From: Roseovarius nubinhibens ISM
GTDB taxonomy: Bacteria; Pseudomonadota; Alphaproteobacteria; Rhodobacterales; Rhodobacteraceae
Direction: 5' to 3'
DNA: 64,000 nucleotides
Assembly (NCBI RefSeq): GCF_000152625.1
Contig: NZ_CH724156.1
Location: 2,196,687 to 2,260,686 of the forward strand
The position numbers and the translations under genes were made by a program. Positions 16,554-61,277 of this stretch are shown one piece after another. The notes beneath the pieces are model-generated. The model worked only from the letters and a program-made list of their open reading frames with translations. It searched no databases and was not told the DNA's origin. Numbering within the stretch: position 1 is the stretch's first letter; every line of letters begins with the position of its first letter.

Positions 16554-17909
16554 CTATTTCGCCTCCGTGGCGATCAACGCGTGAGTGGCTTTCAGTACCT
16601 TTTCGTGGCGTGGGATGTAGATGGGACCCAAACCGCTAATGACCTGCGCCAATGGAAGCCATGTTGGCCCCCGCGGAGGGGAGGGCATTTGGTAAATGTC
16701 TGGATCGAGATTTTGCAAGTCCAGGCAATCCTCTCGGATGAAATTATCGCGCTTACTTTGCTCGTGGTGAGAGGAATAATTGTCAATTTCCTTAAGTTCC
16801 TCTGCCTTTTCGGTAGTTAACCTAGAGCGGGGAAGTAGATCACTGCTTACCTCGCCGAGAACGTCCCGAAACGCGAGGAAAACCAACAAAGGCCGATCCA
16901 AAGGCAACCTTGGATAGCACCGTAACGCCAGCTCGACACGGTCCAGGACGCGTTTCACCTGACGAAAGGTCAGGTTTGACTGACTGACGATCTCACCGGC
17001 CAGCTCCGCCGCCGCCCCTGCCGAAAACGCGCGCTTGTTCCCCAAAGGTGTTCCCACATCCAACTGTTCAAGCGCCAGCGCCTTTGTCGCTGCTTTGCGA
17101 GCTTCGGGCGTAGCCGTCAGGGCCAGACGCAGATCAACAAACTTGTCGAGATACCGTTCGCCAGCCGCCGATTGCCCGAACCTGTGCGCGGCGAGGTTTT
17201 CCAAATACTCCGCGTTGACGAAGAGGCAAAAGACGAAGTTGGAATGCCCGAACACCATCTTGAGGGCTTCCAGCATCGCGATGGCATATTCCGGGTGACA
17301 GCGGTCCAGCTCATCTATGAGGACGACGACCCGATCATGTGGCTTGCCCTCGGTCAGGGCCTTGCGCAGCACCTCGAGCTGTTGTGGCAGCTCGGTTTTC
17401 CGCACCTTTTCGGTGGCCAGTTGTGTGCTGATCAATTGGCCCGCAAGCTTCGACATGCCGTCGCCAGCTTCTTTCACAAGCTCTTCGAGAATGCTCGCCC
17501 CTTCGACCTGATCAAGGGCGGTTTTTTCAAACTCCTTGAGCAATGCAGCGGCACCACTTCGTAGCGCGAACTCCACCGCACCCCGCGAGGCTATGCGTCC
17601 GTATTTCGCGACCACTGCAATCGCTTTTTCTAGGTTGGGCTTCTCCTTGGTGTTCAATCTCTCGGCCAAGGCCCCCATGAAGGTGATCACCGGATCGCCC
17701 GAATGGTCCGACAGTTGCGCATCCAGCTCGATAACCACTTCGTCATTGGCTTCCAGCTGCTTGGCCCATGCCTTTCGGAAGAAGGTCTTGCCATGGCCGA
17801 ACCCGGCTTCGATCGAGATCACCTTGCCTGCGTCAATCGTGGAAATGAGGTTGGTGAAGGACGCACCGGTTTCTTCGAAATTCAAAAGGTCATCTTGCCA
17901 GAATGACAT
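16554..17909 (-). CDS. KAP-family P-loop NTPase
   Basis: A 451-aa soluble KAP-type NTPase. Walker A is GFGHGKT (residues 36-42) and Walker B is VVVLIDELDRC near residue 205, with the typical following HPEYAIAMLEALK. Unlike many KAP proteins no membrane segment is evident between them. The KAP family includes F-plasmid PifA, which blocks phage T7, and animal Kidins220; bacterial members are often accessory and some are defence-linked. The gene sits between cmk and rpsA, and its base composition looks lower in GC than its neighbours, especially the 3' part, suggesting acquisition by transfer. A four-unit 11-bp array lies 75 bp upstream. GAGGAGA precedes ATG 17909. Confidence 0.88.
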   Translation of the reverse strand: MSFWQDDLLNFEETGASFTNLISTIDAGKVISIEAGFGHGKTFFRKAWAKQLEANDEVVIELDAQLSDHSGDPVITFMGALAERLNTKEKPNLEKAIAVVAKYGRIASRGAVEFALRSGAAALLKEFEKTALDQVEGASILEELVKEAGDGMSKLAGQLISTQLATEKVRKTELPQQLEVLRKALTEGKPHDRVVVLIDELDRCHPEYAIAMLEALKMVFGHSNFVFCLFVNAEYLENLAAHRFGQSAAGERYLDKFVDLRLALTATPEARKAATKALALEQLDVGTPLGNKRAFSAGAAAELAGEIVSQSNLTFRQVKRVLDRVELALRCYPRLPLDRPLLVFLAFRDVLGEVSSDLLPRSRLTTEKAEELKEIDNYSSHHEQSKRDNFIREDCLDLQNLDPDIYQMPSPPRGPTWLPLAQVISGLGPIYIPRHEKVLKATHALIATEAK

Positions 17910-17983
17910 GGCTGAAATCTCCTCAGATAAAATATCTGGGACGAGTTGAAAGCGAGAAGGGGAGAGGGATCAACCTCAATTTT

Positions 17984-18027
17984 CCGCACTGTCGCTTTGC
18001 TGTCGTGTAACCGACGCAATACCGACG
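17984..18027 (-). repeat. Four-unit 11-bp array, copy A
   Basis: Read on the minus strand, four adjoining 11-mers: CGTCGGTATTG, CGTCGGTTACA, CGACAGCAAAG, CGACAGTGCGG. The array begins 23 nt after the cmk stop and ends 75 nt before the KAP start. Same architecture as copies at 28327, 33581 and 55779. Confidence 0.8.
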
Positions 18028-18050
18028 TGCCATTTTCGGACCACTACGGC

Positions 18051-18680
18051 TCAGCCCTTGGCGGCGATCCGGCGCTCGGTTTCGGCGATGGCGGCGGCCA
18101 CGGCCTCGTCGATGCTCATCCGTGACGTGTCGAGCTCGACCGCATCCGCCGCGGGTTTGAGCGGCGCCGTGGCCCGGGCGCTGTCGCGCGCATCGCGGCT
18201 TCTGAGGTCGGCGGCCACCTCGTCGAGCGTGACCTCATGCCCCTTGTTTACAAGCTCATTATGCCGTCGCTGCGCCCGGATTTCATCCGAGGCGGTGACA
18301 TAGAGTTTCACATCCGCATCGGGGCAGATCACCGTTCCGATGTCGCGCCCGTCGAGCACCGCGCCGCCCGACCGGCGGGCAAAGGCGCGCTGAAAATCGA
18401 CCAGCGCCGCGCGCACTTCAGGCAGCGCCGCCACCCGGCTCGCCGCCTGCGCCACATCCGGGGTCCGCAGCAGATCATCCTGCTCCAAATCCTTTGCTTT
18501 CAAGGTCTTGGCCGCCTCAACCGGGTCCGTCCCGTCCAGCGTCCGAAGCCCCGTCGCCCGGTACAGCAGCCCGGTATCGAGATGGGTAAAGCCGAAATGC
18601 GCCGCCAGGGCACGGGCAACAGTGCCTTTTCCGGCGGCGGCGGGGCCATCAATGGCAACGGTGAAAGCGCGGTTTGTCAT
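18051..18680 (-). CDS. cmk: Cytidylate kinase
   Basis: A 209-aa (d)CMP kinase that phosphorylates CMP and dCMP with ATP. The P-loop is GPAAAGKGT (residues 12-20), followed by the substrate-binding [24 protein letters not shown] is the conserved CMP-binding block, and RxRDxRDxxR appears as [11 protein letters not shown] in the lid. It starts at ATG 18680. The normal rpsA neighbour is displaced by the KAP gene; the upstream gene is an unrelated short protein rather than aroA, so the common aroA-cmk-rpsA order is broken on both sides. Confidence 0.95.
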
Positions 18681-26744: not shown

Positions 26745-26858
26745 CCACCCGCGCCGCATTTGCCCCGCCGAGCGCCGCATTCTTGCAAGGGTCTTGCACT
26801 GGACAAGCCGCCTGCAACCTGATTTGGCTGTGCGGGAAGATTTTTACGGGAGAAAATG

Positions 26859-28331
26859 ATGACTGACACGAACCTGAAATCGCTTCTGAAGGACCCCTCG
26901 CTTCTGGCTGAGAAATCCTATGTGAACGGCGAATGGATTGACGGCGAAGGCGGCACGTTCGACGTGACCAACCCGGCCCGTGGCGATGTCATCGCGCAAG
27001 TCACCGACCTGAGCCGCGCGCAAGTCTCCAAAGCCATCGACGCCGCTGTCACCGCCCAGAAAGACTGGGCGAGCTGGACCGGCAAGGAACGCGCCGCCGT
27101 GCTGCGCAAATGGTTCGACCTGATGATGGAAAACGCCGACGATCTGGCCACCATCCTCACCGCCGAACAGGGCAAGCCGCTGGCCGAGGCCAAGGGCGAG
27201 ATCGCCTATGGCGCCTCCTTCTTCGAGTTTTTCGGCGAAGAGGCCAAACGCATCTACGGCGAAACCATCCCCGGCCATCAGCGCGACAAGCGGATCACCG
27301 TGATCAAACAGCCGATCGGCGTCGCCGCCTCGATCACGCCCTGGAACTTCCCCAACGCGATGATCACCCGCAAGGCCGCCCCGGCGCTCGCCGCGGGCTG
27401 TGCCTTTGTCGGCCGCCCGGCGGCGGAAACCCCGCTCTCGGCCACCGCCATGGCAGTGCTGGCCGAACGGGCCGGCGTGCCCGCGGGCGTGTTCAACATC
27501 GTGACCTCCTCGCGCTCGAGCGAGATCGGCAAGGAATTTTGCGAAAACCCCGGCATTCGCAAACTGACCTTCACCGGCTCCACCGAAGTGGGCCGCATCC
27601 TGCTCCGTCAGGCTGCCGATCAGGTGATGAAATGCTCGATGGAACTGGGCGGCAACGCGCCCTTCATCGTGTTTGACGATGCCGATCTCGACGCCGCGGT
27701 CGAAGGCGCGATCATGTGCAAATTCCGCAACAACGGCCAGACCTGCGTCTGCGCCAACCGGATCTATGTGCAGTCCGGTGTCTATGACGCCTTCTCCAAG
27801 AAACTCGCCGAGGCGGTCAGCAAGCTCAAGATCGGCGACGGTCTCGACGACGGCACGCAGCTCGGCCCGCTGATCAACTCGGACGCCATCACCAAGGTTC
27901 AGGAACATGTGGCCGACGCCAAGTCGAAAGGCGCCGAGGTCATCCTCGGCGGCGGCGAGCCGATGGAGGGCGAAGGCTACTTCCTGCCGCCGACCATCAT
28001 CACCGGCGCGACCCAGGACATGGCTGTCGCCACCGACGAGACCTTTGGCCCGCTGGCGCCGCTGTTCAAATTCGACGATGTGGACGATGTGATCGCCATG
28101 GCCAATGACACGATCTTCGGTCTGGCGAGCTATTTCTACGCCAAGGATCTGAGCCGCGTCTACAAAGTGGCCGAGGCGCTCGAATATGGCATCGTTGGCG
28201 TCAACACCGGCATCATCTCGACCGAGGTCGCGCCCTTTGGCGGGGTCAAGCAATCGGGCCTTGGCCGCGAAGGCAGCCATCACGGCATCGAGGATTATCT
28301 CGAGATGAAATATATTTGCATGTCGGTGTGA
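26859..28331 (+). CDS. gabD: Succinate-semialdehyde dehydrogenase
   Basis: A 490-aa aldehyde dehydrogenase of the GabD type, oxidising succinate semialdehyde to succinate in GABA breakdown. The catalytic cysteine lies in NNGQTCVCANR, the general-base glutamate in MELGGNAP, and the coenzyme loop in TFTGSTEVGRIL. The normally conserved lysine of the K-P-(A/S) coenzyme site is arginine here (VGRPAAETPLSA). GGGAG at 26848 is better spaced for ATG 26859 than for ATG 26856. No GABA transaminase is adjacent. A single CTGGAC occurs at 26799, upstream. Confidence 0.88.
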   Translation: MTDTNLKSLLKDPSLLAEKSYVNGEWIDGEGGTFDVTNPARGDVIAQVTDLSRAQVSKAIDAAVTAQKDWASWTGKERAAVLRKWFDLMMENADDLATILTAEQGKPLAEAKGEIAYGASFFEFFGEEAKRIYGETIPGHQRDKRITVIKQPIGVAASITPWNFPNAMITRKAAPALAAGCAFVGRPAAETPLSATAMAVLAERAGVPAGVFNIVTSSRSSEIGKEFCENPGIRKLTFTGSTEVGRILLRQAADQVMKCSMELGGNAPFIVFDDADLDAAVEGAIMCKFRNNGQTCVCANRIYVQSGVYDAFSKKLAEAVSKLKIGDGLDDGTQLGPLINSDAITKVQEHVADAKSKGAEVILGGGEPMEGEGYFLPPTIITGATQDMAVATDETFGPLAPLFKFDDVDDVIAMANDTIFGLASYFYAKDLSRVYKVAEALEYGIVGVNTGIISTEVAPFGGVKQSGLGREGSHHGIEDYLEMKYICMSV

Positions 28332-28370
28332 CCGACGCGCTGCCGTCGTAATACCGACGCGATACCGACC
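28327..28370 (-). repeat. Four-unit 11-bp array, copy B
   Basis: Read on the minus strand: GGTCGGTATCG, CGTCGGTATTA, CGACGGCAGCG, CGTCGGTCACA. The array starts within the gabD stop codon and precedes the gabD hairpin terminator by 6 nt. Confidence 0.8.
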
Positions 28371-28375
28371 CTCCG

Positions 28376-31949: not shown

Positions 31950-32073
31950 GATCGAGTCCTTGAGGGCTCTGCCGAGCCAAGCGGAAAGCGCGTGAAAACG
32001 CAACCGGCTTGCGGCCCTTGGCCCGGGTGATCTATATGGGGCGAAATTGCATCAATGTCACCGGAGTCTTCTC

Positions 32074-32814
32074 ATGGCAGGCCATTCCAAATGGGCCAAC
32101 ATCCAGCACCGCAAGGGGCGTCAGGATGCGGCCCGGTCCAAACTGTTCTCGAAGCTGGCCAAGGAGATCACCGTGGCCGCCAAGATGGGCGACCCGGACC
32201 CCGAGAAAAACCCGCGGCTGCGGCTCGCGGTGAAAGAGGCCAAGTCGAGCTCGGTTCCCAAGGATGTCATTGAACGCGCTATCAAAAAAGCGATTGGTGG
32301 CGAGGCCGAGGATTACGAGGAAATCCGCTATGAGGGCTATGGGCCCAATGGCGTGGCGGTGATCGTCGAAGCGATGACCGACAACCGCAATCGCACCGCG
32401 AGCAATGTCCGCTCGACCTTCTCCAAGAACGGCGGTAACCTTGGCGAGACCGGTAGCGTCGGCTTCATGTTCGAGCGCAAGGGCGAGATCAGCTATGCCG
32501 CCGAGATCGGCGATGCCGACACGGTGATGATGGCCGCGATCGAGGCCGGTGCCGAGGATGTCGAAAGTTCGGAAGACGGCCATATCATCTGGTGCGCGGA
32601 TACCGACCTCAACGAGGTGGCGGGCGCGCTCGAAGGTGAGCTGGGCGAAAGTGACTCGACCAAGCTGGTGTGGAAACCCACCACCACGACCGAGATGGAT
32701 CTCGACGGGATGCAGAAGCTGATGAAGCTCATCGAGGCGCTTGAAGATGACGATGACGTGCAGCGCGTCACCGCCAATTTCGAAGCCTCCGACGAGGTGA
32801 TGGAGCAACTCTGA
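32074..32814 (+). CDS. yebC: YebC/PmpR-family protein
   Basis: A 246-aa protein of the YebC/TACO1 family, with the invariant start [19 protein letters not shown] and the central [14 protein letters not shown]-type block (here [19 protein letters not shown]). Family members act as transcription regulators or, in recent work, help ribosomes through stalling sequences. Start ATG 32074 is fixed by the conserved N-terminus. A Pho-box-like four-unit array begins 4 nt after its stop. Confidence 0.95.
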
Positions 32815-32818
32815 ACGG

Positions 32819-32862
32819 CGTCGCCGTTCCGTCATCACCCCGTCACATGCCTGTCATTTGAT
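32819..32862 (+). promoter_or_regulatory. Pho-box-like four-unit 11-bp array, copy E
   Basis: Units CGTCGCCGTTC, CGTCATCACCC, CGTCACATGCC, TGTCATTTGAT. In the other phase this reads CCGTCAT-N4-CCGTCAC-N4-CTGTCAT, close to the PhoB consensus of CTGTCAT half-sites on an 11-bp period. It lies 83 bp upstream of the HNH gene. Confidence 0.6.
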
Positions 32863-32944
32863 CCCGGTATCCGGTGGGTGCATCTGGTGTCTTGCCAGAT
32901 CGCAAACACCGGATATAGTTACCCTATACATGGGGATCAGGATC

Positions 32945-33541
32945 ATGACCGTGATGGAGCGCAGCGATTTCAGAACCGAGTTTGTCCGAAGTCCGGGCGC
33001 GCTCCGGGATCATCCGGCGCTGGTGCTGAATGCCGATTACCGACCGCTGAGCTACTATCCCTTGTCGCTCTGGTCCTGGCAGGAGGCGATCAAGGCGGCC
33101 TGGCTCGACAGGGTGGATATCGTCGCCGAATATGACCATTGGGTCCGGTCCCCGAGCACCGAGATCAGGATCCCGTCGGTCATCGTTCTCAAGGATTATG
33201 TACAACCTCAAAAGCGCGTGGCCTTCACGCGCTTTAATCTTTTTTTACGGGACGAATTCCGCTGTCAGTACTGTGGCACCAAGGGCGATCTGACCTTCGA
33301 TCACGTGGTGCCGCGGGCGGCGGGGGGGATCACCAGCTGGGAAAATGTGGTCGCCGCCTGTTCGCCCTGCAACCTGCGCAAAGGGTCGAAAAGCCTGCGC
33401 CGGGCGGGCATGTCGCTGCGCAAGCCGCCGCGGGCGCCGGCCTCGGATGAGCTGCGCAACACGGGCCGGAAATTCCCGCCGAACCACCTGCATGAGAGCT
33501 GGCTCGACTTCCTTTATTGGGATGCAGAGCTCGAGGCGTGA
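32945..33541 (+). CDS. HNH endonuclease
   Basis: A 198-aa HNH nuclease. The zinc-finger HNH core runs CQYCGTKGDLTFDHVVPR, then GGITSWENVVAAC and CSPCNLRKG; it has paired CxxC motifs and the catalytic histidine in FDHVVP. This stand-alone protein is widely conserved in alphaproteobacteria as a chromosomal gene rather than a homing or restriction enzyme, and its role is not settled. I start at ATG 32945, preceded by CAGGA; ATG 32930 or 32951 are alternatives. A four-unit 11-bp array follows 39 nt after the stop. Confidence 0.85.
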   Translation: MTVMERSDFRTEFVRSPGALRDHPALVLNADYRPLSYYPLSLWSWQEAIKAAWLDRVDIVAEYDHWVRSPSTEIRIPSVIVLKDYVQPQKRVAFTRFNLFLRDEFRCQYCGTKGDLTFDHVVPRAAGGITSWENVVAACSPCNLRKGSKSLRRAGMSLRKPPRAPASDELRNTGRKFPPNHLHESWLDFLYWDAELEA

Positions 33542-33580
33542 TTCGGGGTGTTAACCCGTTGAAATTGTAAGAAAACGAAC

Positions 33581-33624
33581 ATTCGGTAACGCGTCGGCAT
33601 CACGTCGGTATCGCGACAGTATGG
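33581..33624 (+). repeat. Four-unit 11-bp array, copy C
   Basis: ATTCGGTAACG, CGTCGGCATCA, CGTCGGTATCG, CGACAGTATGG, without gaps, 39 nt after the HNH stop. Same order as copies A and D: three TCGGTA-type units and a final CGACAGT unit. Confidence 0.8.
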
Positions 33625-33710
33625 ATGTTGGGAAATGGCCCGATTGGCCAAGGTAAACGCCCCGTACGCAACGGTTTTTTAACATCTCGACCGTACGGTG
33701 GGGTCAGAGT

Positions 33711-34207: not shown

Positions 34208-35707
34208 ATGGGGCAGGCGGCAGAAGGATCGACAGGCGTGACGGCGACTGCGCCGGTCGCAGCGACGGCGTCCGGCACAGCAATTGGCGCGGCGTCGGCG
34301 GCGGGTGCGGCGAAAGTGGTAGGCGCAGCGACGGCGGCAGACGCAACGACGGCGGCAGGCGAAGCGAAGGTGGCAGACGCAGTGACGGTGAGCGCGACGA
34401 CGGTGGCAGGCGCTGCGACGACGGCGAGCGCCGCGACGTCAGAGAGTGCGGCGACGGCGACGGGCGCGGCGGGGCCGGTGCTTGGGGTCGATTTCGGCAC
34501 GTCCAACTCGGCGGCGGGCTATCTGGTCGAGGGCCAGCCGCGGTTGATCGAGATGGCGCCGGGGGAGGTGACCTTGCCGAGCACGTTCTTTTTCGACTTT
34601 GAGAGCCGCGAGACGCTCTTGGGCGAGCCTGCCAATCAGGCGTTGCTCAATGGGGATGAGGGGCGGTTCATGCGGGCGCTCAAACGGGTGCTTGGCACGC
34701 CGCTCATGCATGAGAAGCGCCAGCTTCTGAACCGGCAGGTGACATTTGTCGAGATCATCGGAGGCTTTCTGGCCGAGATCAAAGCGCGGGCCGAGCGGGA
34801 GACGGGGCTGCGGTTCGACGCGGTGCTGTCGGGGCGGCCGGTGGTGTTTCACGGGGTGGATGACCCGCGCGAGGCGCAGGCCGAGGCGGATCTGCGTGCC
34901 TGTTACGAGGCGGCGGGGTTTGCCCAGGTGCAGTTCATGGCCGAGCCGGAGGCGGCGGCGATTGCCAGCGGCGCGCTGGAGCGGGCGGGCGAGACCGGGC
35001 TTATCGTCGATATCGGCGGCGGCACTTCGGATTTCTCGGTGTTCCGCACCGGGGAAACTGGCGTCGAGATTCTGGCCAATCACGGGGTGCGGATCGGCGG
35101 CACGGATTTCGACCGCAGCCTGAGCATCGACCATGTGATGCCGCTCTTGGGGCGGGGCAGCCAGCTGCGCAAAGTGCTGGGCGACGAGACCACGCCGATG
35201 CCGCAGCAGATCTTCAACGATCTGGCGACATGGGAGAAAATCCCGTTTCTCTATACGCCGTCGAACCGGCGGGCCGTGCAGGACATGCAGCGGCTGGCCT
35301 GCGCGCCGGACCGGCTGGCGCGGCTCTTGGCGGTGCTCGAGGATGAGCTGGGCCATGATCTGGCCTTTGCGGTGGAGCGCGGCAAGATCGCGGCCAATGC
35401 AGGGGCGGGCGACGCGCGGATCGATCTCGGCATTCTCGAGCGCGGGCTCGATGCCGGGCTGCCACCCGAGGCGCTGGCGCAGAGCCTCGCGCCGCATGGC
35501 CAGGCGCTGCACCGTGGGGTGACGGAAACACTGGCGCTGGCCGGGCGGCGCGCGGATGAGATCGAGCGGGTGATCTATGTCGGCGGCTCGAGCCTGATGA
35601 ATGTGGTGCCACAGGTGATGCGGGCGCTGATGCCCGGGGCCGACCATGTCTATCGCGACGTGTTCACCGCCGTCACCGATGGGCTGGCCATCGCGGCGGG
35701 GCGGTAA
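34208..35707 (+). CDS. Hsp70-family (YegD-like) protein with Ala/Thr-rich extension
   Basis: A 499-aa protein. Residues 91-499 form an Hsp70/actin-type ATPase: phosphate-1 loop LGVDFGTSNSAAG, phosphate-2 loop IVDIGGGTSDFSVF, and adenosine motif VIYVGGSSLMNVVP. There is no peptide-binding domain, as in E. coli YegD. Residues 1-90 are a low-complexity Ala/Thr/Val/Gly tract coded by repeated GGCAGRCGCAGCGACG-like DNA. GGAGGG six bases before ATG 34208 supports translation of this tract; a GTG at 34479 would otherwise start at the conserved fold. The client is unknown. Confidence 0.82.
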   Translation: MGQAAEGSTGVTATAPVAATASGTAIGAASAAGAAKVVGAATAADATTAAGEAKVADAVTVSATTVAGAATTASAATSESAATATGAAGPVLGVDFGTSNSAAGYLVEGQPRLIEMAPGEVTLPSTFFFDFESRETLLGEPANQALLNGDEGRFMRALKRVLGTPLMHEKRQLLNRQVTFVEIIGGFLAEIKARAERETGLRFDAVLSGRPVVFHGVDDPREAQAEADLRACYEAAGFAQVQFMAEPEAAAIASGALERAGETGLIVDIGGGTSDFSVFRTGETGVEILANHGVRIGGTDFDRSLSIDHVMPLLGRGSQLRKVLGDETTPMPQQIFNDLATWEKIPFLYTPSNRRAVQDMQRLACAPDRLARLLAVLEDELGHDLAFAVERGKIAANAGAGDARIDLGILERGLDAGLPPEALAQSLAPHGQALHRGVTETLALAGRRADEIERVIYVGGSSLMNVVPQVMRALMPGADHVYRDVFTAVTDGLAIAAGR

Positions 35708-51154: not shown

Positions 51155-52492
51155 TTACAGCGCGGCGCGGGCGATGCGCAGGAGTTGCAGCATCTCATAG
51201 GCGCTGTCTTCGACCATCAGCACCTCGCCATTGACCACGGCGTAATTATAGCCATCGGCCAGTTCCGGCAGCGCGTAGGTCTGCACCAGTTCGGCCTGGG
51301 TCAGGGCGGCGGCGGGCGAGACATAGGTCGTGTCCTTGAGCTCGACCGTATGGGCCAGCTCGTTCACCTCGATCAACGCCAGATAGTCGGCATCGGTCAG
51401 GAGCACCGGCAGACCGTCGATCAGCGCGTATTTCTGACCTTCGGGGGCCGGGTCGAGATCGTAGATCGTGGCGATCCGATCCGAGCTTAGCAGCAGGTCG
51501 ATCTCGGCATCGGTGGCGACGGCGACATCGCCGGTGCTGGCACTGGCATCGCTGTCGACCGCGACAAAGGCGGTGCGGCGCTCTTCGAGCAGATCTTCGA
51601 GCCGGTCGCTGTCATAGCTCACCCATTCCTCATAGGTGACGCCCTGTTTGGCGAGCCCCGGCGGCACGCAGGCCGGTGTCTTGTTCATCAGGCCCGGCGG
51701 GCAGTTGCGATAGGTGATGATCTCGGCCACATCGGCGTTTTCGATGGTCACCGGCTCGGTCATGAGTTGCAGCGACGTGCGTTCGATCACCTCGACCATG
51801 TTGCGATCCTGCGGCGCCTTGGCATCCATCAGGGCCTGCACGAGTTTCTCGCGCTCTTCGGCCGAACGTTCGATATCGGCCTTGAACATCGCCATATGGC
51901 GTTCGCGGGCCGCGTCATCGGTCTCTTTCAGAGCTTTTTCGAGATCTTTCTCGAGCTCTTTTTCGACCTTCTTCAGGTCTTTATCGAGAGATTTCTCAGC
52001 CTTTTCAGCGGCTTTGGCCTCTTGCTCGGCACGTTTTTCGGCGTGTTTCGCAGCCTTTTCAGTGGCTTTCTCGACCTTGTCGTCGAGCTTTTCGGCGCGT
52101 TTTTCCGCCTTGTCGGCGGATTTCTCTGCGGCTTTCTCGGCGCGGTCCTCGGCCTTGTCGAGCTCTTTCTCGGCCTTATCCAGCGACTTGTCTGCCTGTT
52201 TCTCGGCGCGGTCGGCGGCCTTGTCGGCGCGTTTCTCAGCCTTGTCTGCGGCCTTGTCTGAGGCTTTCTCGGCCTGCTTTTCAGCTTTCTCAGCGGCCTT
52301 TTCGGCGTCCTTGGCGGCCTTTTCGGCGGCTTTTTCGACCTCTTTGATCTCGTCCTTGACGCGGATCACCTGGGCGCTGTCAAACCCGGTGGTCAGGGCC
52401 TCGACGGAGGTGGCTGTGGGGCTGCCTGTGGCCAGCGCGCCGGTGGCCGCACCTGCGGCGATGAGGGTGATGGCTGTTAGGGGATGTTTCAT
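51155..52492 (-). CDS. Secreted Lys/Ala/Glu-rich coiled-coil protein with PPGLA motif
   Basis: A 445-aa exported protein. A signal-like N-terminus (MKHPLTAITLIAAGAATGAL) is followed at residues about 50-200 by an almost uninterrupted array of AEKAxxKAxKxAEK units, a long charged coiled coil. A NCPPGLMNKTPACVPPGLAKQG element follows, then two similar C-terminal units (LDPAPEGQKYALIDGLPVLL and LPELADGYNYAVVNGEVLMV), as in RcnB/DUF1236-type periplasmic proteins. GGAGAGGAGATC precedes ATG 52492. The function is unknown; a periplasmic spacer or wall-binding protein is plausible. Confidence 0.78.
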   Translation of the reverse strand: MKHPLTAITLIAAGAATGALATGSPTATSVEALTTGFDSAQVIRVKDEIKEVEKAAEKAAKDAEKAAEKAEKQAEKASDKAADKAEKRADKAADRAEKQADKSLDKAEKELDKAEDRAEKAAEKSADKAEKRAEKLDDKVEKATEKAAKHAEKRAEQEAKAAEKAEKSLDKDLKKVEKELEKDLEKALKETDDAARERHMAMFKADIERSAEEREKLVQALMDAKAPQDRNMVEVIERTSLQLMTEPVTIENADVAEIITYRNCPPGLMNKTPACVPPGLAKQGVTYEEWVSYDSDRLEDLLEERRTAFVAVDSDASASTGDVAVATDAEIDLLLSSDRIATIYDLDPAPEGQKYALIDGLPVLLTDADYLALIEVNELAHTVELKDTTYVSPAAALTQAELVQTYALPELADGYNYAVVNGEVLMVEDSAYEMLQLLRIARAAL

Positions 52493-52550
52493 GGGATCTC
52501 CTCTCCTTTGGCTTTCACCCCGAATATCGGGATGGGGCTCGTGAGCCTCT

Positions 52551-52572
52551 GGGGGGTCCAACGTGACCCCCC
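52551..52572. other. 8-bp GC hairpin
   Basis: GGGGGGTC, loop CAACGT, GACCCCCC, between the mmsB stop and the start of the coiled-coil gene. It may limit read-through from the valine operon. No T-tract. Confidence 0.4.
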
Positions 52573-53481: not shown

Positions 53482-54530
53482 GACATGTCACCTTTCGTGT
53501 CAAATGTGAGCTTGTCCGCACCGAGCGGCAAAAGCATCTGTGTGGCGGCCATCTGGGGCGGCGCGTCTAGGGAATGCTGCCAGTTGGGGCTGCGGTCCTT
53601 GTCGATCACGGCGGCGCGGATGCCTTCGAGAAAATCGCTCTTGTCCTGCGCGCGATGGGTAAAGCGGTATTCCAGCTCGAGCGCGCGGCGGATGTCGGCG
53701 GCGGGGCCACGCAGCCGGTGGATCATTTCCACCGTGGCGGCCATCGAGAGCGGCGAGTTGCGGGCCAGCGACCTGAGCGTGTCGGCGGCGAAATCGCCGA
53801 GATCAGCCCGCAGGGCGTTGAGAATGTCGAGCAGCGTCTCGCCCGAGAAAAACCCATCAATCGCAGGCTGTTGCGCGGCAAGCGGTGCGTCGGGGGCGGG
53901 CAGGGCGGCGGCCAGTAGCGGCGCGGTGTCGCCGCATTGGCAAAGCGCGTCGATGAGCGCGGGCCAATTGGCTTCGGGGATGTAGTGATCGGCAAAACCC
54001 GCAAAAAGCGCGTCGCCCGGTCCCATGCGGGCCCCGGTGCAGCCGAGATATTCGCCAAGCCGCCCCGGCGCGCGGGCCAGCAGCAGCGAGCCGCCCACGT
54101 CGGGGACGAGGCCGATGCCGCATTCGGGCATGGAAATGCGCGAGCTGTCGCCCACCACGCGATGCGAGCCGTGGCAGGAAATGCCGACGCCGCCGCCCAT
54201 GGTGAACCCTTGCATGAAGGCGACGTAAGGCTTTGGATATTCAGCGATTTTCGCGTTGAGACGGTATTCGTCGCGCCAGAAATTCTGGCCATAGGCGACG
54301 TCGCCGGCGCGGCCACGGCTGTAGAGTTCCTGGATGTCGCCGCCGGCGCAGAAGGCCTTGTCGCCCTCGGCGTCGATGATCACCAGCGCGACGTTGTCGT
54401 CGTCAGTCCAGGCGTCGAGCGCGTCCTCGATGGCGAGGCACATCTCGTAGCTCAGCGCGTTGAGCGCCTTGGGCCGGGTCAGGGTGATGCGCCCGGCGCG
54501 GCCTTCGATGCGGATGGAGAGATCGCTCAT
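53478..54530 (-). CDS. 3-hydroxyisobutyryl-CoA hydrolase
   Basis: A 350-aa crotonase-fold enzyme. The length and the C-terminal portion (beyond 260 residues) separate it from simple enoyl-CoA hydratases and match 3-hydroxyisobutyryl-CoA hydrolase. Visible blocks are FCAGGDIQELY, MGGGVGISCHGSHRVV (oxyanion hole), MPECGIGLVPDVGG (acidic catalytic residue) and EYRFTHRAQDKSDFLEGIRA. It frees 3-hydroxyisobutyrate from CoA. It overlaps its neighbours by 4 bp on both sides, in a three-gene operon. Confidence 0.92.
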   Translation of the reverse strand: MSDLSIRIEGRAGRITLTRPKALNALSYEMCLAIEDALDAWTDDDNVALVIIDAEGDKAFCAGGDIQELYSRGRAGDVAYGQNFWRDEYRLNAKIAEYPKPYVAFMQGFTMGGGVGISCHGSHRVVGDSSRISMPECGIGLVPDVGGSLLLARAPGRLGEYLGCTGARMGPGDALFAGFADHYIPEANWPALIDALCQCGDTAPLLAAALPAPDAPLAAQQPAIDGFFSGETLLDILNALRADLGDFAADTLRSLARNSPLSMAATVEMIHRLRGPAADIRRALELEYRFTHRAQDKSDFLEGIRAAVIDKDRSPNWQHSLDAPPQMAATQMLLPLGADKLTFDTKGDMS

Positions 54531-55669
54531 CGTTCGGCCAGAAGGTTGCGGGCGACGATCAAGCGCATGATTTCATTGGTGCCTTCGAGGATTTCATGGA
54601 CCCGCAGATCGCGCACCAGCTTCTCGATCCCGTAGTCGGCGAGATAGCCATAGCCGCCATGCAATTGCAGGCATTGGTTGACGATATGCGAGCCGGTTTC
54701 GGTCACGAATTTCTTGGCCATGGCGCAGAATTTCGTGGCGTCGGGGGCACCGGTGTCGAGCTTCCACGCGGCGTGGCGGAGGAAGGTGCGGGCGGCTTGC
54801 AATTCGATCTCGAGATCGGCGAGGCGGAATTGCAGGGCCTGGAATTGGTCGATGGATTTGCCGAAGGCGCGGCGTTCGGACATGTATTGCAGCGTCAGGT
54901 TCATCGCGGTCTGTGCGGCCCCCAGAGAACAGGCCGAGATGTTCAGGCGGCCGCCGTCAAGCCCTTGCATCGCATAGGAAAATCCGCGCCCCTCTTCGCC
55001 CACGAGATTGCCTGCGGGGACGGTGCAATCGTCGAACTGGACCTGCGCCGTGGGCTGGCTGCGCCAGCCCATCTTGTCCTCGAGAGCGCCGAAGGAGAGG
55101 CCGGGGGTGCCGTCTTCGACGAGCAGCGTGGAGATGCCTTTCGGGCTGTCATCGCCGGTGCGGCACATGACGACATAGGCGTCGGAATAGCCGCCGCCGG
55201 AGATGAAGGCCTTGGTGCCGTTGAGCCGGTAGCCTTGATCGGTCTTTTCGGCGCGGGTTTTGAGGGCGGCGGCGTCGGAGCCGGAGCCGGGTTCGGTCAG
55301 GCAGTAGGAGAGCACTTTCTCCATCGCCAGCACCTCGGGCATGACCCGCGATTTGAGGGCGTCGCTGCCGAAGGTGTCGATCATCTTGGCGCACATGTTG
55401 TGGATCGAGAGAAACGCGGCGACAGAGGGGCAAGCCATTGACAAAGCTTCGAAAACCAGCGTCGCATCGAGGCGCGACAGGCCCGAGCCGCCGCTGTCTT
55501 CGCTGACATAGAGACCGCCGAAACCGAGCTCGCCGATCTGCGGCCAGAGCTCTTTGGGGATGGTGCCTTGGGCCTCCCAGTCGCGGGCGTGGGGCGCGAT
55601 ATTGTCCTGCGCAAACGCCTGCGCCATATCGAAGATGGCGGTCTGTTCTTCTGTCAGTGCGAAATCCAT
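54527..55669 (-). CDS. Isobutyryl-CoA dehydrogenase (acyl-CoA dehydrogenase)
   Basis: A 380-aa FAD-dependent acyl-CoA dehydrogenase, first gene of the valine operon. LTEPGSGSDAAALKTRAEK is the conserved substrate and flavin region; the C-terminal QLHGGYGYLADYGIEKLVRDLRVHEILEGTNEIMR carries the catalytic glutamate region (near EGTNEIMR). Context with the hydrolase and mmsB makes isobutyryl-CoA to methacrylyl-CoA the likely reaction. The enoyl-CoA hydratase step is not in this operon. GGGAGGGG lies before ATG 55669. A four-unit 11-bp array lies 110 bp upstream. Confidence 0.9.
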   Translation of the reverse strand: MDFALTEEQTAIFDMAQAFAQDNIAPHARDWEAQGTIPKELWPQIGELGFGGLYVSEDSGGSGLSRLDATLVFEALSMACPSVAAFLSIHNMCAKMIDTFGSDALKSRVMPEVLAMEKVLSYCLTEPGSGSDAAALKTRAEKTDQGYRLNGTKAFISGGGYSDAYVVMCRTGDDSPKGISTLLVEDGTPGLSFGALEDKMGWRSQPTAQVQFDDCTVPAGNLVGEEGRGFSYAMQGLDGGRLNISACSLGAAQTAMNLTLQYMSERRAFGKSIDQFQALQFRLADLEIELQAARTFLRHAAWKLDTGAPDATKFCAMAKKFVTETGSHIVNQCLQLHGGYGYLADYGIEKLVRDLRVHEILEGTNEIMRLIVARNLLAER

Positions 55670-55778
55670 GGCAGCCCCTCCCAAGGCGGTGCGATTTGAA
55701 TTGAACGCGTGTTTAATTACAAAAATTTGCAGAACTATTGCAAGCGCCCTCGGCGGCGGTGGGGTGGTGAAAACGTCA

Positions 55779-55822
55779 CATCGGTATCACGTCGGTAAAA
55801 CGACGGTAACACGACAGTGCAG
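55779..55822 (+). repeat. Four-unit 11-bp array, copy D
   Basis: CATCGGTATCA, CGTCGGTAAAA, CGACGGTAACA, CGACAGTGCAG, without gaps. It lies between the YbdK-type ligase stop (94 nt) and the acyl-CoA dehydrogenase start (110 nt), in a 247-bp gap. Confidence 0.8.
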
Positions 55823-55916
55823 GAATCAAGGGGTCAGCGCGGCCTAAGGGCAGGCCAAAGGCCGGGCCAAGGACGGGCCAGAGACGGCCCGAAATCCCCG
55901 GTGAAAGATCTTCGCG

Positions 55917-57050
55917 TCAGAGGTCTTCGTGAAACTCGTTGATGAGATGCTGCACCACGGCGTTGAGCGCCATGTCGTGATCGCCGGTCCGCTCATGGGC
56001 CTCGGCATAGGCGGCGCGTTGGCGACCCGAGCTGCCGCCCGAGGCGGCCATGTCACGGGCGACGGCCACTTCGCGCAGCGAGTTGAAATGTCCCGCGTCG
56101 GCGGCGATGAGTTCGAGGATCTCGTCGACGAGGATCGGGAAATCGACGATCTCGCCCCGGCCAAAATCAATGAGCCCGCGTTCGGGGCCATAGCGCTGTG
56201 CCCGCCAGCGGTTTTCCGACAGCAGGAACGTGTCATAGATGCGCCAGCGCTGATTATGGGTGGCGAGCCGCCAGAGCATCCGGCTCAGCGCCTGAGTGAG
56301 GGCGGCGAGGGTGAGCGCATGTTCCATCCGGGGCTGTACGTCGCAGATGCGCGATTCGAGCGTCGGGAATTTCGACGAGGGGCGCAGATCCCACCAGATT
56401 TTCGAACTGTCCTCGATCACCCCGAGATCGACGAGGGTCGAGACCGAGCGTTCAAATTCCGAAAAGCTCTCCATCCTTGGCGGCAGGCCGGTGCGCGGCA
56501 GGTTGTCGAAGACCGAGAGCCGATAGCAGGCGAGCCCGGTGTCCTGACCCTGCCAGAAGGGCGAAGAACAGCTCAGCGCCAGAAGATGCGGCAGGAAATA
56601 GCTCAGCTGGTTCATCAGGTCGGTGCGCCGGTCGGGATCGTTGATGCCGACATGGACATGCATGCCGCAGATCAGCATGCGCCGCACCACCGCCGCCAGA
56701 TCGGTCTTGAGCGTGTTGTAGCGGTCGCGGTCGGTGTTCTTTTGATCGCGCCAGTCCGAGAACGGATGGCAGGAGGCGGCGATCGGCGCAAGATTGTGCT
56801 TGGCCGCCTGCCGGGCGACGCAGGCGCGCAGGTGGCGCAGATCCTCGCGGGCCTCGGCCACGGTGGCGCAGACCTTGGTGCCGATTTCGATCTGGCAATT
56901 CATGAATTCCGGGCTGACCTGCTCCTGCAGCTCGACCTGACAGGCCTCGAAGAGCTCTGGCGGGCCTTCGGCCAGGGCAAAGCTATCGAGATCGACGAGA
57001 AGATACTCTTCTTCGATGCCGATGGTGAAATCGGGTTCAGCTATGGCCAT
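55917..57050 (-). CDS. YbdK-type carboxylate-amine ligase (GCS2 family)
   Basis: A 377-aa protein of the glutamate-cysteine ligase 2 family. The N-terminal [12 protein letters not shown] carries the metal-binding glutamates; CGMHVHVGI and [10 protein letters not shown] are other family signatures. E. coli YbdK has weak gamma-glutamylcysteine synthetase activity; the physiological product of bacterial homologues is uncertain. ATG 57050 is preceded by GAGGTG. It is separate from the valine operon by 247 bp. Confidence 0.88.
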
Positions 57051-57118
57051 TACACACCTCACACGTCAGTTTTCTTAAGAAATAGCGTGATGGCGGCTTT
57101 GCCAAGAAAATTCGTACC

Positions 57119-59777: not shown

Positions 59778-61277
59778 ATGCAAGAGCTTCACCACTTCAT
59801 CGACGGCGCCCTTGTCAAAGGCAAGTCGGGCCGTTTTGACGACGTCTTCAACCCCGCCACCGGCGAGGTCCAGTACAAATGCCCGATGGCCAGCGTCGAC
59901 GAGACCACCGATGCGATCGAGCGGGCCGCCAAGGCGCAGCCCGCCTGGGGCGCGACCAACCCGCAGAAACGGGCCCGCGTGATGATGAAGATGGTCGCGC
60001 TGATGAACCGCGACATGGACAAGCTCGCCGAGGCGCTGAGCCGGGAGCATGGCAAGACCATCCCCGACGCCAAGGGCGACCTGCAGCGCGGTCTCGAAGT
60101 GATCGAATATTGCGTCGGCGCGCCGCAGATGCTCAAGGGTGAGTTCACCGACAGCGCAGGCCCCGGCATCGACATGTATTCGATGCGCCAGCCGCTCGGC
60201 GTTGTGGCCTCGATCATGCCCTTCAACTTCCCCGCCATGATGCCGCTGTGGCATGTCGGCCCGGCGCTGGCTTGCGGCAATGCCGTGGTGCTCAAGCCCT
60301 CCGAGCGTGACCCCTCTGTGCCGCTCATGCTGGCCGAGCTCTTTGTCGAAGCGGGCCTGCCCGCCGGATGTTTCCAGGTCGTCAACGGCGACAAGGAAGC
60401 GGTCGACACGCTGCTCGACAGCGAGATCATTCAGGGCGTGTCCTTTGTCGGCTCGACCCCGATCGCGCAATATATCTACAGCCGCGCCACCGCGAATGGC
60501 AAACGCGCCCAGTGCTTTGGCGGTGCCAAGAACCACATGATCGTGATGCCCGATGCCGATATGGATCAAGCCGCGGACGCGCTGGTCGGGGCCGGGTTTG
60601 GCGCGGCGGGCGAACGCTGCATGGCGATTTCGGTGGCTGTGCCGGTGGGCGAGGAAACCGCTGACCGTCTCATCGAAAAGCTGGTGCCGCGCATCGAAAA
60701 GCTCAAGGTTGCGCCCTATACCGCAGGCGACGATGTCGACCTCGGCCCGGTGGTGACCGCCGCTGCCAAGGAGCGCATCCTCGGCCTCATCAACTCGGGC
60801 GTCGAGCAAGGGGCCGAGCTGGTCGTCGACAACCGCGATTTCAAACTGCAGGGCTATGAAGACGGGTTCTTTGTCGGGCCGCATCTCTTTGACCGGGTGA
60901 CCCCGGACATGGATATCTACAAGCAGGAAATCTTTGGCCCGGTCCTGTCGACCGTGCGCGCAGAGACCTATGAGGAGGCGCTCAAGCTGGCCATGGATCA
61001 TGAATATGGCAATGGCACCGCGATCTTTACCCGCGATGGTGACACGGCGCGCGATTTCGCCAGCCGCGTCAACATCGGCATGGTCGGCATCAACGTGCCG
61101 ATCCCGGTGCCGCTCGCCTATCACACCTTTGGCGGCTGGAAGAAATCCATGTTCGGTGACCTGAACCAGCACGGTCCGGACAGCTTCAAGTTCTACACCC
61201 GCACCAAGACCGTCACCTCGCGCTGGCCCTCGGGCATCAAGGAAGGCGGCGAGTTCAACTTCAAGGCGATGGACTGA
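59778..61277 (+). CDS. mmsA: Methylmalonate-semialdehyde dehydrogenase (CoA-acylating)
   Basis: A 499-aa aldehyde dehydrogenase that oxidises methylmalonate semialdehyde with CoA and NAD to propionyl-CoA and CO2, the end of valine catabolism. The catalytic cysteine lies in AGERCMAIS. Typical of MmsA rather than other aldehyde dehydrogenases are FNFPAMMPLWHVGPALACGN, QCFGGAKNHMIVMPDAD and the absence of the usual general-base glutamate in that block. AGGAGGATTCC precedes ATG 59778. Its substrate comes from MmsB at 52.6 kb. A strong terminator follows. Confidence 0.95.
   Translation: MQELHHFIDGALVKGKSGRFDDVFNPATGEVQYKCPMASVDETTDAIERAAKAQPAWGATNPQKRARVMMKMVALMNRDMDKLAEALSREHGKTIPDAKGDLQRGLEVIEYCVGAPQMLKGEFTDSAGPGIDMYSMRQPLGVVASIMPFNFPAMMPLWHVGPALACGNAVVLKPSERDPSVPLMLAELFVEAGLPAGCFQVVNGDKEAVDTLLDSEIIQGVSFVGSTPIAQYIYSRATANGKRAQCFGGAKNHMIVMPDADMDQAADALVGAGFGAAGERCMAISVAVPVGEETADRLIEKLVPRIEKLKVAPYTAGDDVDLGPVVTAAAKERILGLINSGVEQGAELVVDNRDFKLQGYEDGFFVGPHLFDRVTPDMDIYKQEIFGPVLSTVRAETYEEALKLAMDHEYGNGTAIFTRDGDTARDFASRVNIGMVGINVPIPVPLAYHTFGGWKKSMFGDLNQHGPDSFKFYTRTKTVTSRWPSGIKEGGEFNFKAMD

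Follow-up and report, generated by a model that had tools for sequence, protein, structure and literature searches.

REP sequences are short intergenic repeats that are enriched at the 3′ ends of genes, and the sites of SlmA (SBS) and Noc, as well as matS, are short palindromes without polarity that are dispersed as protein sites for chromosome-wide work. The DNA uptake sequences of Neisseriaceae are short and occur in species dialects, at a far higher density than the element described here and without leading-strand polarity. With regard to form, the nearest described sequences are the TAACTGA direct repeats of Beggiatoaceae and Cyanobacteria, intergenic heptamer sets with a patchy distribution; in the accessible portion of the source, they comprise two to six copies of a 7-bp repeat and, in the genome chiefly examined, are for the most part placed ahead of start codons, while eight sets sampled from Microcystis, each lying between stop codons, have one chromosome orientation (PMC4679880). 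The arrays reported here differ from them, as far as that portion describes them, in unit length, placement and replication polarity. With regard to behaviour, the closest systems in the accessible portions of two reports are KOPS and AIMS (PMC2680272, PMC5993296), and the strand bias of AIMS is given there as strongest near ter (PMC5993296); the portion available of PMC7901474 mentions KOPS in general only. KOPS and SRS, the orienting sequences of FtsK and SpoIIIE, and AIMS are octamers, and like the present arrays they are polar, biased to the leading strand and switch orientation near the terminus, whereas the arrays are approximately 62 bp long, are built of four 11-bp units, are mostly intergenic and number approximately 150.

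Here, we have analysed a window of 64,000 nucleotides from the chromosome of Roseovarius nubinhibens ISM (G000). The four arrays pointed out in it by the initial annotation, each a gap-free run of four 11-mers, are confirmed (Table 1), as is the genome-wide family to which they belong, and the interpretation given to them is partly supported. When the window was scanned with a three-unit pattern allowing up to three mismatches, nine matches were obtained, every one at copies A to D, compared with a mean of 0.11 in shuffled sequence. As originally described, CGACAGT is present in unit 4 of copies A, C and D and absent from copy B, and a check of gene positions places each copy at or past a stop codon. 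Copy A follows the cytidylate kinase gene and does lie upstream of the KAP NTPase ORF, with 75 bp to the ORF start at 17909; nothing special about the KAP gene was found. Copy D lies 95 bp beyond the stop codon of GCS2 and antisense to it. The sign of the GC skew changes between a citrate-transporter gene and the HNH endonuclease gene, at what is probably an inversion breakpoint, the presumed inversion having taken the orientation of the arrays along. Long imperfect tandem repeats with periods of 18-66 occur at 34296-34471, near an HSP70-like gene, and at 51922-52337, within the minus-strand ORF 51155-52561.

Table 1. Arrays and skew switch in the 64-kb window, with matches to the 67-column model described in the text.
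Feature	Window position	Strand	Units	Model E	Genome position of match	Context
Copy A	17980-18040	-	17984-18027, plus flanks	1.2e-14	G000:C2:2214666-2214726	24 bp separate units from end of cytidylate kinase ORF (18051-18680, -)
Copy B	28327-28375	-		7.4e-9 (model positions 11-55; weakest of four)	G000:C2:2225017-2225061	Antisense to aldehyde dehydrogenase gene (26856-28331, +), overlapping its stop codon
Copy C	33570-33631	+	33581-33624	6.8e-15	G000:C2:2230256-2230317	Past HNH endonuclease gene; first array beyond GC-skew switch
Copy D	55768-55827	+	55779-55822	5.5e-16	G000:C2:2252454-2252513	Between GCS2 gene (55917-57062, -) and acyl-CoA dehydrogenase gene (54527-55684, -)
GC-skew switch	32000-33500					Mostly negative over 1-32 kb (A and B on -), positive over 33-64 kb (C and D on +)

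The repeat units do not make up the whole element. It consists of an A-tract, four CGGT-type units and a T-tract, approximately 62 bp in all, and in one orientation its form in this genome is approximately GAAAATGGCAC - GTCGGTAACAC - GTCGGTATTRC - GWCGGTAAAGC - GACAGTGCGG - ATTTT. The odd unit is unit 4, and the conserved flanks, of the GAAAATGGC type on the left and the GCGGATTTT type on the right, belong to the element. Of the fixed 44-bp form initially proposed, the usual presence of four units holds in this genome, while the length does not, and relatives also have arrays of three or five units. The 11-bp period is compatible with repeated contacts along one DNA face, as had been suggested. 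Across the whole genome (3,676,244 bp in 4 contigs), the same three-unit pattern with up to three mismatches had 317 matches (154 forward and 163 reverse, approximately two per array), against eight (1 + 7) for a reversed-pattern control, so that the copies are clearly more numerous than expected by chance and the description of a polar, mostly intergenic, near-fixed element in many copies is borne out. A 67-column sequence-only model trained on 22 arrays then yielded at least 150 matches, all at E ≤ 0.0011, with scores of the 150 listed forming a smooth gradient from 68 to 20 bits. Two of these matches represent one array near 3,182,2xx, and merging the six pairs of neighbours less than 500 bp apart, this double count among them, leaves 144 sites. 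All 150 listed matches are spread over the chromosome contig and none is on the other three contigs (approximately 0.1 Mb), which does not resemble plasmid iterons, as no clustering near a replication initiator gene or origin was seen. We found no described element of this form in the open-access literature, in agreement with the initial annotation, although its absence in print is unproven; a text search of that literature for the exact sequence returned unrelated matches only.

The arrays follow the strand composition of the DNA around them. In approximately 3 kb fetched around each of the 150 listed arrays, with the array itself masked, 146 arrays were on the G-rich strand, the four exceptions being plus-strand arrays at 120,366, 168,959, 248,621 and 375,212. 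Close pairs in opposite orientation occur at G000:C2 167664/168959 and 371753/375212, and the plus member of each is one of the skew exceptions. The polarity is no effect of coding, since it holds for 43 of 44 arrays with coding strongly against the array and for 32 of 33 with coding along it (Spearman 0.02, p 0.77). Along the contig, the strand of the arrays is non-random (0/2000 permutations). It is the leading strand that is rich in G, and the position of parS is consistent with this here: parS occurs in three perfect copies inside 2.2 kb (G000:C2:1380409-1382602; 1.380-1.383 Mb), which mark the origin region, and the array strand flips from minus to plus between 1,373,732 and 1,393,647, an interval that brackets them. 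Skew and arrays flip a second time near 3.2 Mb, which was taken as ter.

Agreement with the present replichores is lower, with only 112 of the 150 listed arrays concordant when ter is placed at the best fit. The discordant arrays follow the local skew and include a block at 1.53-1.77 Mb that was read as an inverted segment because the local skew matches the arrays there, which suggests that wrong-way arrays in inverted segments are tolerated. Concordance climbs from 15/29 in the fifth of the arms nearest ori to 29/31 in the fifth nearest ter. Successive fifths from ori to ter contain 29, 24, 35, 31 and 31 arrays, that is, neither a clear rise in density toward ter nor a depletion at ter was found in this genome. 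A leading-strand bias that switches at ori and ter and a strand bias that grows toward the terminus are thus common to the arrays and to KOPS and AIMS. The octamer motif and the rising abundance toward the terminus are lacking, and the arrays, unlike KOPS and AIMS, are absent from many congeners; we have kept them outside these systems because they have no octamer and no clear density rise and because congeners live without them. The arrays resemble the sites of SlmA, Noc and matS in being dispersed, but those in the present genome differ in their polarity and in lacking depletion at ter.

Spacing and gene context have their own regularities. With a mean spacing of 24.8 kb (approximately one site per 25 kb), the sites of this genome are more evenly distributed than randomly placed ones (CV 0.62 versus 0.99 ± 0.08, 0/5000), and the longest gap is 78 kb. 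A purpose-made hexamer gene caller assigned a context type to 132 of the 150 listed arrays, of which 51 are in convergent gaps, 35 in '--', 28 in '++' and 18 in divergent ones; 16 others lie inside a called ORF, possibly owing to overreach of the caller, and two have one side missing. Compared with the gaps of the window, where 4 of 32 gaps longer than 60 bp are convergent, these counts indicate that the arrays favour the 3′ ends of genes and are scarce in divergent gaps. The direction in which either neighbouring gene runs has no bearing on how the arrays are oriented.

Sequence variation among the 150 listed arrays is concentrated between the cores. In the CGGT cores, 12 of 16 positions are occupied by a single base in 92-100% of arrays, although this conservation is partly built in, as the model by which the arrays were detected gives weight to the cores. 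The linkers have three variable positions per unit, at which the commonest base reaches 41-77%, with some dependence between adjacent bases. Pairwise identity averages 62%. Identity above 80% is found in 0.8% of pairs versus 0.014% in shuffled columns, and only two real pairs exceed 90%, both of them local (95% at 12 kb and 91% at 0.6 kb), which points to some subfamily structure and no recent burst.

The distribution among relatives is patchy. By using the own-species model at E ≤ 0.01, matches were detected in at least 39 of 295 genomes of the family (best approximately 17 candidates per genome) and in 23 of 40 genomes of the genus, the present one being included in both counts; four of these 23 have one weak match each, and the congeners have between 0 and 92 matches. 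This model found no match in 17 of the 40, which suggests that the function is dispensable. A cross-species model built from 34 arrays was applied to nine array-less congeners. It detected nothing in seven of them (G297, G303, G307, G314, G316, G321 and G322), and the other two, G295 and G329, had a single weak match apiece. In the class, at least 6 of 385 genomes match when the best 12 candidates per genome are considered, four of them within the family and two, weakly, outside it. Relatives retain the unit GTCGGTATTRC and vary in the number of units (three to five), the identity of the odd unit and the flanks.

The strand rule extends to relatives. In G269, which belongs to another genus, 29 of the best 30 of 73 matches are on the G-rich strand, and in the congener G325 the figure is 24 of the best 30 of 34. 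With replichores set by parS, 46 of 73 arrays are concordant in G269 and 24 of 34 in G325; a two-breakpoint strand contrast in G269 was not significant (285/2000). Over-even spacing was not significant in G269 (CV 0.87, p 0.15), and the arrays of G325 are clumped (CV 1.33). Unlike the present genome, G325 has a 796-kb array-free gap (G325:C1 1.38-2.18 Mb, P 0.008) near the point opposite parS, a feature that recalls the ter depletion of nucleoid-occlusion sites.

When the genes flanking 150 own, 30 G325 and 30 G269 loci were compared, 13 array pairs had a common gene within 600 bp, three of them matching on both flanks. Sorted by hand, five pairs have a common junction and the same orientation, five have a common junction with the array flipped relative to the gene, and in three the arrays lie on opposite sides of the common gene. 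In the flipped pairs, 9 of 10 arrays are on the strand that is G-rich in the genome to which they belong; the sole discordant array, at 60,460 in G325, is paired with that at 2,277,347 in G269, both flanks of this pair match and the gap is scarcely larger than the array. Hence, orientation appears to follow replication history rather than genes. Among genomes with few arrays, no common candidate partner gene was found beside the arrays when translated starts at 18 loci were read by eye, and two pairs of these genomes have a neighbour gene in common. G198 and G253, from two genera and with one and three arrays, respectively, each have one array at the same type of junction, the genes of which are presumably branched-chain amino acid transporter genes.

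A second element was found at a shared junction. Downstream of one gene, which we take to be of the gltD type, 28 genomes including the present one were compared: G000, G310 and G302 have the 11-bp array, whereas G297, G301, G307 and G321 have three or four GTAC units, spaced at 9, 9 and 13 bp or at 9 and 22 bp, and the remaining genomes have a partial GTAC element or none. The pattern GTAC-N5-GTAC-N18-GTAC is present in 12 of the 40 genomes of the genus. It has 80 matches in G301 (control 1), 78 in G327 (1), 75 in G323 (1), 30 in G297 (3), 23 in G321 (1), 21 in G308 (0), 18 in G307 (0) and 15 in G329 (2), one to three in each of the other four, and none in the present genome (control 1). G301, G323, G327 and G308 carry both GTAC elements and 44-77 of the 11-bp arrays. 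The GTAC element is on the G-rich strand at 25 of 30 loci across the 12 congeners, some of which have matches at the control level only, and at 21 of 23 sampled in G301 (20 hand-picked from the 80 matches and three common to the 30-locus set). On contig C1 of G301, its spacing is also over-even (CV 0.64, 64 sites, 0/5000). Hence, two unrelated sequences obey one strand rule; junctions common to both show a modest excess at most. In 400 kb of the array-less G329, no GTAC pairs of the element type were found between genes. A generic scan that recovers 135/150 own, 30/30 G325 and 30/30 G269 arrays found five intergenic period-11 matches in the same 400 kb without a common consensus, one of them in a masked run, and a period-12 excess that resembled coding repeats.

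We suggest, with a probability of roughly 40%, that the array is a protein-bound marker of chromosomal polarity that works like KOPS and AIMS without being a member of either. A putative sequence-specific DNA-binding protein would contact the four CGGT-type units from one face, over approximately 44 bp between the A/T tracts. Together, the arrays would mark the direction of replication from places that are mostly gene-free and promoter-poor, almost always on the leading, G-rich strand. Their likeliest use would be to provide direction or coverage for machinery acting in the organisation, movement or protection of the chromosome, for which a translocase, an SMC-type loader or a nucleoid-occlusion-type factor are candidates. 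Each copy may be kept because it is read by the protein, and the way in which it points with respect to replication would matter. Considering that relatives have array dialects or a different element, the GTAC one, of like polarity, reader and site appear to evolve rapidly as a pair.

The main rival, which we regard as unlikely, holds that the arrays are old mobile elements (MITE- or REP-like) that were inserted via the single-stranded lagging-strand template, insertions in genes and promoters having been purged by selection. Insertion of this kind would account for the polarity, the preference for 3′ intergenic positions, the patchiness, the species variants and the presence of several families per genome, and it agrees with the subfamily structure and the smooth gradient of scores in the present genome. 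Two families within one genus are also well explained, and for two unrelated families of the same polarity an insertion bias fits as well as function does. Against it, no near-identical burst is visible and the cores are held while the linkers vary; over-even spacing without long gaps in the present genome is unexpected; and in G325 the scores drop from 43 bits to 36, 36 and 25 with no long tail. A search for transposases of the Y1_Tnp type (PF01797; RAYT and IS200/IS605 transposases) had no match in the present genome or in 12 of 13 congeners with at least 19 arrays, G332 being the sole carrier among these; in the genus as a whole, 9 of 40 genomes carry it, and in 8 of the 9 no more than one array match is found. 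REP/RAYT and IS200/IS605 are thereby ruled out for the present genome. The arrays do resemble REP/BIME systems in being short intergenic repeats with approximately 100 copies and 3′-end enrichment, but they are made of direct-repeat units, do not keep a hairpin across species and have strong leading-strand polarity.

It is improbable that the arrays are DNA-transfer sequences held by molecular drive, that is, that DNA carrying them is more often taken up, packaged or recombined, in the manner of uptake sequences. Gene transfer agents are a known trait of this bacterial group, and the species dialects, a trait shared with the dispersed uptake sequences of Neisseriaceae, the intergenic position, the even spacing in the present genome and the lack of a visible host need would all suit such a role. 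However, strict strand polarity would be left unexplained, and uptake sequences are unlike four-unit arrays of approximately 62 bp at one per 25 kb. A check of phage sequences yielded one IMG/VR contig matched exactly by a three-unit pattern, which the own-species form would escape, and a plasmid check gave no BLAST match to a G325-type array, with a low-complexity filter that may hide repeats.

More doubtful still is a role as operators, in which a winged-helix response regulator or similar protein would govern the adjacent genes, as the initial annotation implied. The arrays do have the form of tandem 11-bp units made of a heptamer and a 4-bp linker, which resembles the tandem sites of the OmpR/PhoB type. 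Nevertheless, their orientation ignores the flanking genes, '++' and '--' contexts being represented by 28 and 35 arrays, and divergent gaps are the rarest typed class (18/132) and convergent ones the commonest (51/132), so that the location and orientation tied to promoters in OmpR/PhoB-type operators are not seen; nor did inspection by eye of genomes with few arrays reveal a recurrent gene family next to them, the two neighbour-sharing pairs excepted. An element acting in RNA (a terminator, a 3′-end processing signal or a structured RNA) is very improbable: the arrays often lie directly past stop codons, the typed consensus of this genome, with outer inverted repeats, folds at -26.5 kcal/mol and 30 sampled arrays of the 150 beat their shuffles (mean z -1.13 on either strand, z < -2 in 7 and 8 of 30, versus 0.0 and 1/30 for upstream controls), but their orientation is unrelated to the direction of transcription, the gene-context counts ruling out any reading tied to it, the moderate folding is not maintained in cross-species arrays (mean z -0.77 and +0.35), unit 3 has T in 49%, A in 42% and G in 9% at its pairing base, so that the inner stem is not preserved, and no Rfam family exceeded the gathering threshold in 20 array loci except for a nearby tRNA. 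The REP/RAYT, operator and RNA readings all fit worse than a polarity marker.

In a broader form, the polarity marker may belong to an undescribed chromosome-marking system in Roseovarius and its relatives, which we put forward tentatively. In such a system, putatively protein-read arrays on the leading strand, long and placed between genes about every 25 kb, would be drawn from interchangeable families, namely the CGGT array and the GTAC element, and would re-orient upon DNA inversion because their orientation relative to replication is what matters. The known leading-strand markers, KOPS and AIMS, are octamers; if this proposal is true, a rare, long, mostly intergenic and near-perfectly polar marker would represent a new way of writing chromosome direction. 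As each site stands alone and can be removed or inverted, what chromosomal polarity is worth would become open to direct test. Even if the arrays are mobile, their strand rule would reveal an unrecognised replication-coupled element.
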